Of a DNA stretch of 62,447 nt, positions 6,096 through 47,307 are shown one piece after another (within the stretch, counting starts at the first letter, position 1; every line of letters begins with the position of its first letter). The notes beneath the pieces were generated by a model that made no database searches, was not told the origin of the DNA, and worked only from the letters and a program-made list of their open reading frames with translations. Source of the stretch: Planctomycetaceae bacterium (GTDB taxonomy: Bacteria > Planctomycetota > Planctomycetia > Pirellulales > Pirellulaceae); assembly GCA_947463915.1 (NCBI GenBank), contig CANHVO010000006.1, positions 1-62,447 on the forward strand, written 5' to 3'. The translations under genes were made by a program, and so were the position numbers.

Positions 6096-9000
6096 CTAGA
6101 TAAGACTTCCAAGGATATCGTCGATAGCAAGGTTCAAGGCGAGTCCTGAATCTTTCTCCTCGGTCGAATCCTCCGTTGGAAGAACGCTTGACCAGTCGAG
6201 TTGATCGACGGCCAGTGCTGGCCCAATGTTGGACGAAACCGAAGCGAGATACGAATCGAGAGTCTGGATCGCCCTCGATGCTTCCACCCTCGAAGGTGTT
6301 CTCACTTCGTTCGATGGCTTTGTCGTGACTTCTGGAGCGGCATAGCTTGCAGCGGAAACCCATCGATCGGACGCGGGACCCTCGCCTTCGCCGCCAACTC
6401 CACCACCCGATGTTTGCGAGTTGATGTAGTTGATAACGGTAATGACATCGAGTGGTCCGACAAATCCGTCACCGTCCACATCCAAGTAAGGAGGTGTGTT
6501 AAGTGCTGGGAATGGCAACAGTCCTGAGCCGTTTGCATTGATGTAATTCACCAGTTGGAGAACATCCAACGGCGAAACACCACCGTCTGCGTTGACGTCC
6601 AGGCGGTTCGACTGATTGGTATACGGATTGCGATTGATGTTGACGTAGTAATCTTCTACTTCTCCATCTGGCACTTCCCCGTTTGGCCAAACTCCAGTCG
6701 GTCCAAGCTGTAGAGCCGTTCCGTTCGGTACCGGTATATTCTCTCTTGAAGACAATCTTACTCGCAAAGCCACTGGCCCATTCGTCTTAGAAGTGCCAGG
6801 AATGATTGTCCTTGGAATCGAGATCGTATTGTTGCCTTCTCCAATTCGTCCAGAAACCGGAATCTTTTCGGTCGATTCGAAAGTTCCGTTTCCGTTCGCG
6901 TCGAGCCAAGCACTGATGAATGCCGGTCTGGACCCGGTGATAATTCCTTGGACGTTGACAACGATTGAACCGCCAAAGGAAGCCGTCAGCGCTCCGACCG
7001 TTACGCCATCATCCGAATCTAAGTCAATCAAGCGTGCATCCGCATCGGCAGTCACCGTAGGTCCGAGTGAGAAGCCGTTGACGACGACGTGACGCGGGCC
7101 GTTGCTTGCTTTTTTGGTTGCATAGATTGGATCGGCGGCATCTCCATAATCGAGTCCTTGACCCAAGAAAATGGTAACCAATGTTTGGCCGTTTATCTCA
7201 GTCGCTCGCATTGCATTGCCAGCTCGGTCACGGATACCGCTTACTGGCCCTACACCCAAACCAGCCAATCCGCGGGCTCCTTCGATGAGGATCGTGGATG
7301 CAAGTTGAGTCAACCGAACTCCAGGCAGATTGCTTGCGACAATCGCCTTCGAGAGTGCTTCGGCAACTTCTTCACTTGTTGTGATTTGCGTCAGATCGAT
7401 CGTGACAGGAATCGACGCCCCCTGGCCAGGAGTACCAACTACTAGCAAAGCGGTGCTGGACGCTTGGATTCTCAAATCGGATTGTGTTCCTACCGAAATC
7501 AGACCACCGGGCAGTGCGACCGCAGTCAATCCCAGATTCGCCCCGTTGATCGCGGAAACGATGCCAGCGGCAAAACCAGCCGTTGAACCGGTGTTCAATG
7601 GAACTCGAATGTTGTTTGCACCAATCGTACCGTTATCATCAAGCTCGAAGACTAGCGTTGTATTTCCGCGTTGGATGGTAAACCGTTGACCATCGGCAAC
7701 ACCAACTGGCAATCCGTTTGTCGTAGGTATTTGAAGCCCATAGCCCGGCGTGGTTCCTGCACGACCCGTAACGGTCATTTGGCTGTCTTCCGCGAAAACA
7801 TTTACGAGACTTCCACCCAAAATCTGCAGCTCACTGCCTCCGATTGCTTTTGCTGTTAGGTTTAGGCCAGCGTTGCGTATGGTTGCTGCCACTTTCTCGG
7901 CCAATACACTCGGCGGATCCTGAGTACTGATGAGAATTTGGACATTGTTAGGTCGCACATTCGCATTGTCATCGAATTCGAATGTGACGCTTCGGAAACC
8001 GTCATCCACTCGGAATGTAGTGCCGTCAACCGCCGCAGTCGTAAAGCCATCGATCGAAGACGGTACCGCGAGACGAATGCCAGTGTCGAGCTCAAACCGT
8101 GTACTGAAATTCGTGGAATCCAAAACAGTGTAGATTGTTCCGTCTACAATATTCTTTGGGGCTACCAGTGTTATGGCTGATTCATTGGTATTGATAAAGC
8201 GAGCTTGGTAGACCGCTTCTCGATCCCAAATTCCAGCCAACGGTGTTAAGCGAATGATGTTGCTGGTGGAGTCAAATCCAAAGCGATAATCCAGTCCCTC
8301 GACGAGAATCTGCCCATTCTTGTACAACAGAATCGAGCTTGAAGTAACGGACAACGGATTAACGCCCGTTCCCTGCGTCTTGTTTCCTACCTGCGAAGTA
8401 TCCAAAATTTGGAAATCGAAGTAAGTAAACGTCTGATTCGCTAATTCGACGATACCGAGGGCAGGATTCTTGTCTGCTCCCAGGGCGTCGTTGTCAAAGG
8501 GATAGACTGAAATCGCTGATGGGCCCGCAAAGTCTGCTCTATCCGCCGCTCCGCGATCCTTGAATATTCCTTCGCCGAGCCCCGGTGGAGTTTCTACGCT
8601 GGGGTCATCCACTCGAAGCATACCATTGATGTCCGTAGATGGAGCAACGATAGGCGATGCAGCGAGTCCGAGGGGTTGTTTTACCGAAAGGAGCGCGGAT
8701 CGATCCACGAGAGTATCGATCGTAGCGTCAATTGCGGCCGAGTTCGGAACAGGGTAGAGATTACCTGTGGCCGCGTTGGTGAACAAAGGAACACCGTTGG
8801 GGACAATCGTCGCAAACTGTCCTAACGGAGCGGAACCTCCGGAGTTGGCCGTGTTCCCCTGGTAGAGTGTTGCTCCGATCACAGTCGAAGTACTTGATGC
8901 ATCGACAGAAATTCCTGTCACATGATTGGCGACGATGTTGTTCATCAGTGTTGGGCTCGCGTTCGCACCAACGCGAATACCGGTCCCTAAAGGTATGAAC

Positions 9001-42777: not shown

Positions 42778-45700
42778 CTAAGTTGATTTCCGTAAATGCC
42801 GAATTGCTGTGCTCGGTGTTCGCGATTGCCTTTGAGGTAATCGATCATCTTGGTCCGCAGTGAATGTCCCCATCGCAAAGAGCAGGTCAGTTGCTTGCCA
42901 TTTTTCGCCTTCGCCACCGCCATTGGCACCGCTGCCGCCGCCATTGGCTCCGAGATTGATTCGATTGATGACCTGAAGAACATCCAAGGGGCTCAGGAAG
43001 TTGTCGCCATCGGTGTCGTAAAATCCCGACGGGGAGGTCGTTTGTCGAGGCGGAAGTGTGCCGGTTGGGAAAACATCGGCGTTGATTGCATTAATGAGGA
43101 CCAATACATCCAATGGAGAGATGGTTTTATCTCCATCGGCATCTAGTCGCGATACTTCGTTGCGCCAGGGTCGCGCACTGACGACTTCCAAAGTGCTAAC
43201 AGCATTCGTATCTTTGTCCACATTGGTATAGGTTTGGACCCAAGCATTGTTCTCGATTCGACCTGTCTGCGCGGACCAAATGTTAGGTGTTGAAAGAGCA
43301 TCCTCCACGTTCATAACCACCTTAAGCTTTTTCTGACTGTTGATCGACTGAACGTCCGTTTCCTTGAGTGAAAGAATGTTTTCACCTGATTGCCGAAGAT
43401 CGATGGTTTGAACCCCTTGGACGTTTCCTGTACCGTAGTTTGTCAGGTTCAGATTGCTTGTCGTGACCTTTAGTTCAACCGTCGAATTCAACTCGTTGTA
43501 GTTTATCGCCCCTGGAAATGCACTTGAGAAATCATGTAATTCGGAGACGATGTTACCGTTTTTGTCCAAGCTGGAGAGCTTCGTTAATTCGTTGGCTGAA
43601 ACGCTCCACACGGCGGTTCCCGCAACGGAAATGGTAACTTTCCCATCTGCAATTCTTATTTCATGTGCTCCCAGTTCGTCCACAAAAAGTTTTGGAAACG
43701 AAGTACTGCCACCATCGAAACGGACCGGGATATCCTTGCTAAAATCTCCCTCTTGCAACGTTCCATTGGGAGTCATCCCTCCGACCTTGCTCAAGCGAAA
43801 ACGCGCATTCCGGTCACTTGTCCCTGTTGATTTCGGTATCGTGAATGGAATTATGTTTCTACCCGTTGCCACCGCAATTTTGGTCAAAACCTGATCTTCT
43901 GGATCGTCCCAATCACCGTCTTTGTTGAAATCGACCCAGGCATCCACGAAACCTGGCTTTGCCGCATTCACGACAAAGCTGGATGTTGTTGGGGTAGTTG
44001 GGCTTACCCAATTTGTCATGGGCGAGGAAATCTCGATGCCATTTCGAATCGCGATGGTTGCAGAGGGGAGAACGACTTGACTTTGCGTTAAATACTGGCC
44101 GTCTCCTCCCAACATCGAAATTCCCAATCGCTCGCTATCCAGTGTTGAGATGGATTGTTCCAATTGAATCGAACCGAGCCCAACCGCCGTAAACAGGGTG
44201 TCGTAAGCTGCGATTGAACTACCTGCCATCGCAGCGGGGAAAACCGTGCGATTCGACGTTCTCCCTACCTTTTGTAATGCACGCTGGCCAGCCTTCGAGG
44301 CCGTTAGATCGACTAATTTGCTGTTCGCTGCATGGGAGTAATCGGAAGAGGAGGATGTGTTTTCAAAGGCGATCTTCGCTGCATTGGAACCATCGCTATT
44401 GGTGTAGTTGAAATCCGTATACGCACTAAACACACCTCTCGGGTCCACTCGCAAGTCGCGAATAAAGGTCCGGACGATAAACTGTTCCCCTAGCCCAACG
44501 ATTGCTTCCAACTTGCCATCATTCGGATTGGGATCCAAATTCCGACCGTCTTTGGAATAGAAACCATAGGTCAACTCAGCTAGCAATGGCGGCGAACTGC
44601 TGCTTGGAGAGGCATTGAGCTGATCCACTATCTTCAAAGCATCCAGTGGCGTTACCAAGTCATCTCCATCGACGTCGAAGTAGTTTGGTGGTCCTAGCAA
44701 ACCTAGGACCGATGTCGATGCCCCCCTTGAGTTCAATAAGTTGATGACGGTTAGGTAGTCAAGTGGACTTACACTTCCATCCCCGTTTACATCGAGTGGA
44801 TTTATCGGATTTTGATATCCCCGAGCCGGAGGTGTGACAACGACGGTAAACGATTGCCTCGTTTGCAGTCCCGCTTGATCTTGTACCAAAACAACAATTT
44901 CCGATGCGCCAAACTTATCGGCGACCGGTGTAAAGGCAATGGAACCCGAGGCGTTTGGAGATACGTAGGTCAGCGTAGGATTCGGAATGAGTGAAGGGTT
45001 GCTACTGCTGACGAAAATGGCGACGGGTCCAGATTCACCTGGCCCATCGCTAATTCCATTAATAATGACGGTTTGCAAGGATGCGTTTCGGGACAGAGTC
45101 TGATTTGAGATCGGATTGAGGGTCGGGACGTCATTGGCCGGAAGCACATCGATAGTCACAGTGCCTACAGATTGATCTCCAAGATTGTTTCGCACTGTGT
45201 AAGTGAAAGTCACTTTGCCATAGAAGTTTGCTGCGGGGACGAAATCGATGGTCGAACTATTGCTTTGAAAGCGAACAATACCTCCGACAGAGGGCTGTGT
45301 TACCGCAATAATTCCGCGTGATGTTCCGGAGCGATCTACGTCGTTTGTCGTTAGGTCAAACGTCTTGGATCCCGCATCTTCCATTATGGAAAAACTATCA
45401 CTAGTTGCGACCAATCCCTCACGGATGGTGAGGGTAGCATTTGGTAAGACAACTTGGCTGTCCGACAAATAATTGCCCGAGCTAAGAAACATAGATACGC
45501 CTAGTTTCTCGTTTCCTGGCTGCGAAAGGGTCAGCGAAATCCGAACAACTCCGGTGTCTCGGGCGGTAAAGAGCGTGTCGTATACCGGCTGAAATGTCCC
45601 AGCCGCTTCACTTGCGAAAGAAAAGCGGTTGGTAAATCGACCGACTTTTTGCAGCACTCGTTTTCCTGGTACCGTAGCTGTGAGGTCGACTAGATTTCCA

Positions 45701-47307
45701 GAGGCACCCGATGTGTACTCGATTGATGAAGCAGTACGATCAAATACGATCTTGGCTGGCGCTGACCCATCCGCGTTTATGTAATTAAAGTCGGAGTACA
45801 CACTGAATACGCCGATTGGATTGGCTCGCAAGTCCTTTACATACGTTCGTACGATAAACTGCTCTCCTGGGCTAACTGTTGCCTCCAATATCGCGTCGTT
45901 CGGATTGGGATCAAGGTTATTGCCGTTCAATGAAAAAAAGCCGTAGGAAAGCTGGGCCGCCCCACCGCCATTGCCATCAAACGGCCCCCCAAATGTCAGA
46001 TAGTCTATGACTTTTAAAACGTCTAGCGGTGTGACGAGATCATCGCCGTCAACGTCATAAAACGGTGGTGGCCCAGGTAGTCCCACAACCGAGATCGAGG
46101 CTCCTTTGGCATTCAATAAATTGATGATGTTCAATGCGTCGAGCGGGTCCACCGATGCGTCATTGTTGACATCCAACGGATTCGAGGGGTTGCGATAGCC
46201 ACCTGGAGGCACGGTCACGATGATCTTCGCTGTCGGCAAAATCACTTGTTCGGCTTTCAGTTCAGCGAAGCCTCCATACATGGTCATTCCATTACTGGGT
46301 TCACCCGGAGCCGCGGTCCGAATCGTTTGGCGAATATTGATAGTACCTGCTTCGGATGCAACGAAGATTTTGTCTTCTGCTGCGAAGTAGTTTCCGGCAA
46401 CTTGGGCTGGAATTGAGGTAGCAGAACTGATGCCTCCTACGCCTTCCAAAACACGATTCCCGGGTATGGACGCCGTCTTGTCCACTAGGCGTCCAAAGAT
46501 CCCTCCATTGTATAAGGGGACTTGGCTTGGGACCGGCGTTTTGTTGAGTGCCGCTTCTAGAACCAATGGTGTCGAAGGTGAAGGGTTATCCACCCCCGTC
46601 ACGGTCACGGAAACCGGCGCGGGGTTGCTTGCCGAAATTGTCAGCGAATTGCTAACTAATTCTGGATTGGGAATGTCGGTACGTGCGAGGGCGTTTCGGA
46701 AGGAAACACCATACAACGTATCATTCCGGGCTCTTACAAGAACGTTTCCGACACCTATATTGGGGAGATTTTCTATAGCAGCCTGAATGTTCGACGCTGT
46801 GAGATTCCGGTCCACTACGATGAACCCGGAAGGTTCCTCTCGCAGTCCCATCGAGATATTGGATGTGGTGTTGGCCCCATACCGCAATTGAAAGGTACCG
46901 GCCTTGGCTCCATTACTGAATGAAATCGTGTTGGATTCACCCCACTGAACCTTAATCTTTTCCGCCGCAGAACCATCCGAATTGGTGTAATTGAAGTCGG
47001 ACATGGTGCTAAAGACGCCCTGAGGCGATTCTCGCAAATCTCTCACTAGAGTCCTTACAACGAATTTTTCTCCGAGCTGAACGTTTGCCTCCAGCTGGGT
47101 ATCATTCGGATTCGGGTCAAGATTCCTACCCGTCGTTCCGTCTGTGTTGAGGGCATAGAATTCGTACGTTAGCTGTGCAATCTCACCAGCCATCACACGC
47201 CGTTCTTCCAAAGTCTCATATCGAAGCTTCCGACTAGCCAATCGACAAACTTTTTGGAATTCCTTTTTGCGAATTCGGTTCTTCTTGGCAGCTTTCGAAA
47301 TGGTCAT
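42778..47307 (-). CDS. Secreted scaffold-like protein with repeated cohesin-like units and three dockerin modules
   Basis: 1509 residues. The N-terminus has LRYETLEERRVMAGE (about 28-42), the planctomycete LEPR-XLL-type motif. Three related units begin near 45, 447 and 908, each with LDPNPND, ...E(A/Q)VVRT or EQFIVRT, V(R/K)DLR...GVFS and DFNYxNxDGS, and end ...SQVVLP(N/S)AT. They resemble the cohesin-like domains seen in planctomycete proteins. Dockerin pairs follow at about 372-440, 829-895 and 1383-1452 (each with NPLDVNxD or RLDADGD and YDVDGDDLVTPLD). A cadherin-like module (about 629-725) lies between. Unit 1 carries an extra insert of about 140 residues. Dockerin binds cohesin through calcium, so the protein could self-assemble or join a scaffold. 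Confidence 0.92.
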   Translation of the reverse strand: MTISKAAKKNRIRKKEFQKVCRLASRKLRYETLEERRVMAGEIAQLTYEFYALNTDGTTGRNLDPNPNDTQLEANVQLGEKFVVRTLVRDLRESPQGVFSTMSDFNYTNSDGSAAEKIKVQWGESNTISFSNGAKAGTFQLRYGANTTSNISMGLREEPSGFIVVDRNLTASNIQAAIENLPNIGVGNVLVRARNDTLYGVSFRNALARTDIPNPELVSNSLTISASNPAPVSVTVTGVDNPSPSTPLVLEAALNKTPVPSQVPLYNGGIFGRLVDKTASIPGNRVLEGVGGISSATSIPAQVAGNYFAAEDKIFVASEAGTINIRQTIRTAAPGEPSNGMTMYGGFAELKAEQVILPTAKIIVTVPPGGYRNPSNPLDVNNDASVDPLDALNIINLLNAKGASISVVGLPGPPPFYDVDGDDLVTPLDVLKVIDYLTFGGPFDGNGGGAAQLSYGFFSLNGNNLDPNPNDAILEATVSPGEQFIVRTYVKDLRANPIGVFSVYSDFNYINADGSAPAKIVFDRTASSIEYTSGASGNLVDLTATVPGKRVLQKVGRFTNRFSFASEAAGTFQPVYDTLFTARDTGVVRISLTLSQPGNEKLGVSMFLSSGNYLSDSQVVLPNATLTIREGLVATSDSFSIMEDAGSKTFDLTTNDVDRSGTSRGIIAVTQPSVGGIVRFQSNSSTIDFVPAANFYGKVTFTYTVRNNLGDQSVGTVTIDVLPANDVPTLNPISNQTLSRNASLQTVIINGISDGPGESGPVAIFVSSSNPSLIPNPTLTYVSPNASGSIAFTPVADKFGASEIVVLVQDQAGLQTRQSFTVVVTPPARGYQNPINPLDVNGDGSVSPLDYLTVINLLNSRGASTSVLGLLGPPNYFDVDGDDLVTPLDALKIVDQLNASPSSSSPPLLAELTYGFYSKDGRNLDPNPNDGKLEAIVGLGEQFIVRTFIRDLRVDPRGVFSAYTDFNYTNSDGSNAAKIAFENTSSSSDYSHAANSKLVDLTASKAGQRALQKVGRTSNRTVFPAAMAGSSIAAYDTLFTAVGLGSIQLEQSISTLDSERLGISMLGGDGQYLTQSQVVLPSATIAIRNGIEISSPMTNWVSPTTPTTSSFVVNAAKPGFVDAWVDFNKDGDWDDPEDQVLTKIAVATGRNIIPFTIPKSTGTSDRNARFRLSKVGGMTPNGTLQEGDFSKDIPVRFDGGSTSFPKLFVDELGAHEIRIADGKVTISVAGTAVWSVSANELTKLSSLDKNGNIVSELHDFSSAFPGAINYNELNSTVELKVTTSNLNLTNYGTGNVQGVQTIDLRQSGENILSLKETDVQSINSQKKLKVVMNVEDALSTPNIWSAQTGRIENNAWVQTYTNVDKDTNAVSTLEVVSARPWRNEVSRLDADGDKTISPLDVLVLINAINADVFPTGTLPPRQTTSPSGFYDTDGDNFLSPLDVLQVINRINLGANGGGSGANGGGEGEKWQATDLLFAMGTFTADQDDRLPQRQSRTPSTAIRHLRKST

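Follow-up and report, generated by a model that had tools for sequence, protein, structure and literature searches.

The window analysed here, i.e. the whole stretch of 62,447 nucleotides (contig C6 of a source genome of 7.6 Mb in 618 contigs), encodes a protein of 1509 residues in which three cohesin-like units and three dockerins occur in one chain. We read this protein as an extracellular scaffoldin-like adaptor of a non-cellulosomal cohesin-dockerin system and assign to this reading a probability of slightly more than one half; an expanded adaptor of a "planctosome"-like system is its most likely form. Dockerins 1-3 would plug into cohesin-like receptors at the cell surface, with a genus-wide dockerin-unit protein or a cyclophilin-unit protein as candidates, and units 1-3 would hold further proteins that bear a dockerin, among them several peptidases. 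We infer binding between units and dockerins, presumably calcium-dependent; polymerisation of the window protein, like any assignment of a given dockerin to a given unit, would be conjectural.

Architecture of the window protein and predicted fold of its units

The protein is read from a single frame without break on the minus strand (42778..47307; translation and Pfam), and all coordinates given here refer to this strand. Near its N-terminus, Pfam weakly indicates a planctomycete extracellular N-terminal motif (residues 25-43, 47179..47235; 21.4 bits against a cut-off of 25.5). Judged from this weak motif and the kinds of domain present, the protein is probably secreted; the hydrophobic core of a signal peptide does not stand out at its N-terminus. 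The chain continues with unit 1 (residues 41-365, 46213..47187; alignment and profile), dockerin 1 (residues 379-438, 45994..46173; Pfam and dockerin profile), unit 2 (residues 445-632, 45412..45975; structure model and profile), a cadherin-like/Big_9 (tandem-95) region (residues 633-830, 44818..45411; Pfam) and dockerin 2 (residues 839-898, 44614..44793; dockerin profile and genome search). It is followed by unit 3 (residues 906-1092, 44032..44592; alignment and profile), a GEVED domain (residues 1121-1188, 43744..43947; Pfam), a C-terminal domain (residues 1190-1382, 43162..43740), dockerin 3 (residues 1389-1452, 42952..43143; dockerin profile and genome search) and a tail. Pfam alone reports Dockerin_1, Big_9/cadherin-like repeats, GEVED and the sub-threshold N-terminal motif. 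The stretches dockerin 1 plus unit 2 and dockerin 2 plus unit 3 are 56% identical, which makes intragenic duplication the probable origin of at least some of the layout. The flanking genes, coding for an anthranilate synthase-like enzyme, a WecG-type glycosyltransferase and planctomycete cytochrome-type proteins, contribute nothing to the adaptor reading.

The C-terminal domain is common to several large proteins of the source genome and recurs on C539, C44, C125, C1, C323 and C46 with E-values from 7.5e-60 to 2.7e-19. A dockerin stands just after it on C539, C125, C1, C323 and C46, and none is listed for C44. The proteins on C539 and on G007:C119 have their C-terminal part in common with the window protein and carry no unit.

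The three related units, whose presence agrees with the original prediction, start near residues 44, 448 and 909, can be aligned end to end and show 51% (units 2 and 3), 48% (units 2 and 1) and 47% (units 3 and 1) identity over the aligned residues. Among the three, unit 1 alone is interrupted by an insertion of about 150 residues (approximately residues 119-265, 46513..46953). The genus-wide paralogue (L087), which has a single unit, carries an insertion at the same place in it, and an iterated search started from the insertion gave 37 rows in the fetched frames.

The window protein has no match to the Pfam Cohesin family (PF00963) at E<=1, and the assignment of the units to cohesins starts from structure. 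Unit 2 was the unit that was folded, with an alignment of 22 sequences from the window and the public loci as input. The AlphaFold2 model has a mean pLDDT of 89.7 and a pTM of 0.86; it consists of eleven strands plus a short helix. A Foldseek search of this model against the PDB returned 41 matches at E<=0.001 (best E 1.9e-6), of which ranks 1-9 are all cohesins and 23 bear titles that name a cohesin, a scaffoldin or a cellulosome; 3kcp, which we take to belong to them as well, would be the 24th. The TM-scores for ranks 1-9 are modest (0.40-0.47 normalised by query, 0.44-0.63 by target). Another model, comprising dockerin 1 and unit 2, was less confident overall (pLDDT 75.9, pTM 0.65), with a linker below pLDDT 50, and had cohesins again as top PDB matches. 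Thus, unit 2 is confidently modelled as the jelly-roll of cohesins, as the original prediction had expected for the repeated unit.

Profile searches point in the same direction. An independent profile, built from related domains under exclusion of the rows of the window and its nearest relative (L130), matched unit 2 with 3e-10, unit 3 with 2.6e-9 and unit 1 with 5.3e-6, while 2000 shuffles of units 2 and 3 reached 2.1 at best. The match to unit 2 extends over most of the profile (22-157), those to units 3 (25-86) and 1 (22-64) over its first half only. The profile made from the three units alone found relatives outside the genus in seven genomes (best E 3.9e-8 to 1.2e-5). Moreover, some members of the unit family exceed the Pfam Cohesin cut-off. 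The two-unit relative on C63 of the source genome reaches 31.3 bits protein-wide, with no single stretch passing alone, and G023:C24 reaches 33.1 bits protein-wide with a best single domain of 24.9 bits; G021:C9 scores 24.1 bits and G054:C46 28.8 bits, the latter with both profiles matching at one place. Seven residues are invariant in ten members (G39, D50, R52, G57, D64, G106 and G114 in the numbering of the unit-2 segment), and the family can be described by the motif D-x-R...G-[VI]-[FY]-[SA]-x-[YF]-x-D.

Direct sequence comparison with known cohesins gave weaker signals. The family profile found no PDB chain at E<=1, phmmer of the window protein against the PDB gave chance-level matches only, and a related domain hit one scaffoldin weakly (E 0.58). 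An iterated profile that had drifted into the insertion repeat and Calx-beta domains was dropped in favour of an alignment of insertion-free units (A4). In profile-profile comparison, A4 aligned with the canonical cohesins of the genus end to end and in register (E 0.012, probability 1.6%), versus E 0.045-0.89 for five control domain families; another alignment, A3, was not better than the controls (E 0.46). The profile-profile relation is accordingly a weak indication and not our main evidence. Based on the fold match, the independent profile and the family members above the Pfam cut-off, the units form a separate divergent cohesin branch that is mostly missed by Pfam; they have the cohesin fold, as modelled for unit 2, and cohesin ancestry is very likely.

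Dockerins of the source genome and their cargo

The dockerin assignment is straightforward. Pfam Dockerin_1 matches the window protein with E 3.7e-26 and 91.5 bits (cut-off 22.9) in four stretches, and dockerin profile and genome search together resolve these modules as three complete type I dockerins (PF00404), each consisting of two calcium-loop halves. All six half-repeats carry D at positions 1, 5 and 12 and D or N at position 3, and the model of dockerin 1 contains two helices, as expected for the duplicated calcium loop-helix of this type. The three dockerin pairs proposed from the sequence are therefore confirmed. The same holds for the 5067-residue neighbour in the window, which had been named as another dockerin protein and carries a dockerin near its C-terminus (6420..6599; dockerin profile and Pfam) that might act as partner.

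In the source genome, the genome search gave 53 dockerin matches versus 36 dockerin frames found by profile in the fetched stretches, the gap reflecting low-scoring matches that the profile did not find again and stretches that were not fetched. Two L108 frames (contig C1), with a dockerin by profile and none by Pfam at E<=1e-4, are included in the 36, which may also count one gene twice since C483 (L088) and C342 (L091) hold an identical dockerin. This identity on two contigs could represent a recent duplicate or one gene that was assembled twice. In 67 of 77 half-repeats, Pro-Leu occupies loop positions 10-11, mostly alike in both halves; positions 1, 3, 5 and 12 were used for selection in this count, leaving only positions 9-11 free. 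In classical dockerins, loop positions 10-11 set the specificity. The dockerins of the source genome are nearly uniform in this respect, and dockerins 1-3 of the window protein share the loop residues of the majority. Hence, it is plausible from this uniformity that a single specificity class serves most of the genome.

All 36 dockerin frames were scanned with Pfam, the E limit varying between 1 and 1e-4. Peptidase domains were found in five of them, namely a matrixin (L069), subtilases of family S8 (L095, L108), a reprolysin-like domain (L096) and a trypsin (L074). Other cargo domains include haem peroxidase (L077), AhpC/TSA (L081) and HbpS-like domains (L072, L073); the haem peroxidase fused to a dockerin on C50 is of the animal type, and the AhpC/TSA fusion lies on C110. 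None of the 36 frames has a glycoside hydrolase or cellulose-binding domain recognised by Pfam. The expectation of a scaffold that is not based on cellulose degradation fits these numbers, and the docking system may serve to collect secreted proteases instead of cellulases.

Unit-dockerin tandem and distribution among Pirellulales

Units and dockerins are preferentially arranged side by side. Altogether, 86 unit-bearing frames were counted, taken from stop to stop in the fetched stretches and partly cut by contig or stretch ends; L109-L130 were excluded as repeats of places already counted. In 51 of these frames the profile also detects a dockerin, which is a lower bound, because the profile misses some dockerins (L204 has none by profile and one by Pfam). 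A distance of no more than 30 residues separates unit and dockerin, whichever comes first, in 42 of these 51, and seven of the nine others exceed this limit only slightly (31-37 residues). Random placement of the dockerins within the same frames, a null model that ignores relatedness, gave a mean of 6.9 and a maximum of 15 in 1000 trials. One genus-wide family contributes 13 of the 51 frames; without it, 33 of 38 frames lie within the limit (hand count; the null refers to the full 51).

Such a direct tandem in both orders would also be expected if the unit served as a cis helper that stabilises or caps the neighbouring dockerin like an X module, instead of being a receptor in trans. However, we consider this quite unlikely. 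No dockerin was detected by profile in 35 of the 86 unit frames, including L204 and some frames that are cut by contig ends, and 32 of the 36 dockerin frames of the source genome lack a unit; hence, unit and dockerin seem to form a favoured tandem while being apparently not dependent on each other in cis. Furthermore, X modules are Ig-like, whereas unit 2 has the cohesin fold, and the linker in the model of dockerin 1 and unit 2 has a low pLDDT. The linkers between neighbouring units and dockerins comprise 8-13 residues between profile edges, and with linkers this short a pairing of adjacent unit and dockerin within the chain is less likely.

Other arrangements of the same modules exist in the genus. 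The genus-wide paralogue, mostly 1550-1710 residues long where complete, has an N-terminal dockerin, an insertion-bearing unit and then cadherin repeats; it was found with the three-unit profile in 25 of the 26 other genus genomes, with the dockerin directly before the unit in 24 of the 25 and the last one cut by the contig. Other family members combine two units with a C-terminal dockerin. The nearest unit-bearing relative (G012:C368 = L130), cut by the contig end, contains one unit, a GEVED-like region and a C-terminal dockerin. In several genus genomes, a cyclophilin-type isomerase domain is joined to one unit and cadherin repeats (L107 = C562, L161), with no dockerin detected. At least three unit matches also occur in the frames L184 and L203, in both of which the dockerins are confined to a single place. 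Three units together with three dockerins in one frame were found in the source genome only, among the fetched stretches. A scan of public contigs with the three units gave no relative, and a scan with the alignment of the genus orthologues gave 22 loci. The window protein itself is rare, and its 3+3 layout lacks conservation across the genus.

This bears on the originally proposed idea of a self-assembling polymer, in which the dockerins would bind units in other copies of the protein and produce a cross-linked extracellular network of valence 3+3. The chain contains each module three times, the Pro-Leu loop residues of dockerins 1-3 are those of most dockerins of the genome, and the short linkers argue against pairing between neighbours. 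Nevertheless, such a network appears unlikely to us given the lack of conservation of the layout in the genus, and in known adaptor scaffoldins the cohesins and the dockerin are usually of different types, which prevents self-binding. A wider version is rather speculative: in Pirellulales, an as yet unnamed cohesin class and its dockerin might form a near-linkerless, transferable module that chains giant surface proteins and secreted peptidases into a calcium-held extracellular polymer, with the window protein as cross-linking hub. If this module reading were true, receptors would be at hand for many planctomycete dockerins that now have no recognised partner, and a tandem module that chains itself would lend itself naturally to the design of protein polymers switched by calcium.

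The adaptor reading can also be considered at the level of genomes. Within the genus, the unit branch is present in 27 of 27 genomes (profile, E<=1e-4) and dockerins likewise in 27 of 27, with 5 to 53 matches each, whereas Pfam Cohesin finds anything, canonical cohesins included, in 7 of 27. A correlation between the numbers of dockerins and unit matches in these 27 genomes (Spearman 0.41, p 0.036) was not relied on, because the dockerin number also tracks genome size (0.55). In the order sample, 34 of 117 genomes contain the unit branch, all 34 with dockerins, compared with dockerins in 40 of the 83 genomes without it. Fisher tests of the co-occurrence gave 5.5e-9 at genome level and 1.4e-4 at genus level, ignoring relatedness. 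In the phylum sample, the branch was detected in 6 of 199 genomes at E<=1e-5, including the source genome.

The distribution is relevant for one further alternative, namely that the unit has kept the jelly-roll and lost dockerin binding, acting as an adhesion or ligand domain of giant surface proteins, while other cohesins receive the dockerins or the latter are adhesins themselves. The weak sequence relation to canonical cohesins and the presence of canonical Pfam cohesins in the source genome are consistent with such a loss. The same is true for several dockerin-rich genomes without units (G042, G044, G258 and G331, with at least 34-50 dockerin matches; a canonical Pfam cohesin is present in all of them except G331, which matches neither cohesin profile), and for the adhesive role suggested for a giant Omnitrophota protein (PMC10066038). 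Yet the co-occurrence and the direct adjacency of unit and dockerin speak against it. Moreover, among the 74 of 117 order genomes with dockerins, only 14 have a Pfam cohesin, and the addition of the unit family raises the number with a possible cohesin partner to 41, leaving 33 with neither. We therefore regard a loss of binding as distinctly unlikely and prefer the adaptor reading. With the partners added by the unit family, the function of planctomycete dockerins is open to direct tests, in a system whose cargo seems to consist of peptidases and surface giants, not cellulases.

Relation to known cohesin-dockerin systems

A second arrangement with cohesin and dockerin in one chain apparently exists in the same genus, as suggested by sequence motifs. 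Canonical Pfam cohesins (PF00963) occur in giant cadherin-type proteins, in the source genome on C170 and C220 (L010-L012), and also on G002:C67 and G009:C66 (L157, L158). After these cohesins comes a different dockerin-like motif, GDxNGxxxYxAxDA (recognised by eye), which on C220 lies between two cohesins. Like the window protein, the proteins of C170 (a frame of 1807 residues) and C220 combine cohesins and dockerin-like segments in one chain; unlike it, their cohesins are canonical and their motif is missed by the SPLD-type profile.

With cellulosomal scaffoldins, the window protein has several cohesin-fold domains and a dockerin in one chain in common, but it lacks a carbohydrate-binding module (CBM), and dockerin-tagged cellulases were not found by Pfam among the 36 frames. 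Adaptor scaffoldins of complex cellulosomes carry both modules in a single secreted protein (PMC11557425), and the window protein, probably secreted as well, resembles them in this respect. It differs by its three dockerins, its divergent cohesins, the tight unit-dockerin tandems and the absence of recognised glycoside hydrolases from the scanned dockerin frames. The original interpretation is supported in part, namely regarding the cohesin fold, modelled for unit 2, and the non-cellulosic basis; the occurrence of both partners in one chain is a common trait of adaptor scaffoldins.

Multiple modules per chain have also been reported from other prokaryotes. In ANME archaea, proteins with a dockerin and up to five cohesins per chain were described, whose role is unclear (PMC9012536); they are similar to the window protein in this combination and differ by their archaeal origin. 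The Omnitrophota giant, with nine dockerins, is similar in having several dockerins per chain, but in the accessible part of that source no cohesin is named and adhesion is suggested (PMC10066038). The huge proteins of Planctomycetota show a raised proportion of Dockerin_1 (PMC11573180).

The closest counterpart is the hypothetical planctosome (Andrei et al. 2019; PMC6461901), proposed for Nemodlikiaceae, with peptidases as the cargo of a dockerin-HYR-cohesin adaptor; a later paper repeats the idea in one sentence (PMC11840708). Both systems belong to Planctomycetes, have dockerin and cohesin in one adaptor chain, and seem to share peptidase cargo, possibly including the M12B type, with no cellulose link in the accessible part of the original description (PMC6461901). 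Specific to the planctosome are the HYR domain in the adaptor, the lamin-tail anchor, the M12B and M14 cargo and the occurrence in Nemodlikiaceae (PMC6461901). In contrast, the system described here belongs to a Pirellula relative and is characterised by the cohesin branch mostly missed by Pfam, three dockerins and cargo of the S8, M10 and trypsin types. Pfam finds no HYR domain in the window protein despite its dockerins and cohesin-like units, and among the 36 scanned frames there is one M12B-like domain and no M14, with other peptidase families instead. Among the papers listed for planctomycete or non-cellulosomal cohesin-dockerin systems, titles and abstract openings revealed no description of the branch or its dockerin tandem. 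Collectively, the non-cellulosomal cohesin-dockerin adaptor is known as a kind, and a one-chain adaptor has already been proposed for Planctomycetes; new are the divergent cohesin class, the dockerin tandem in which it occurs and the 3+3 layout.
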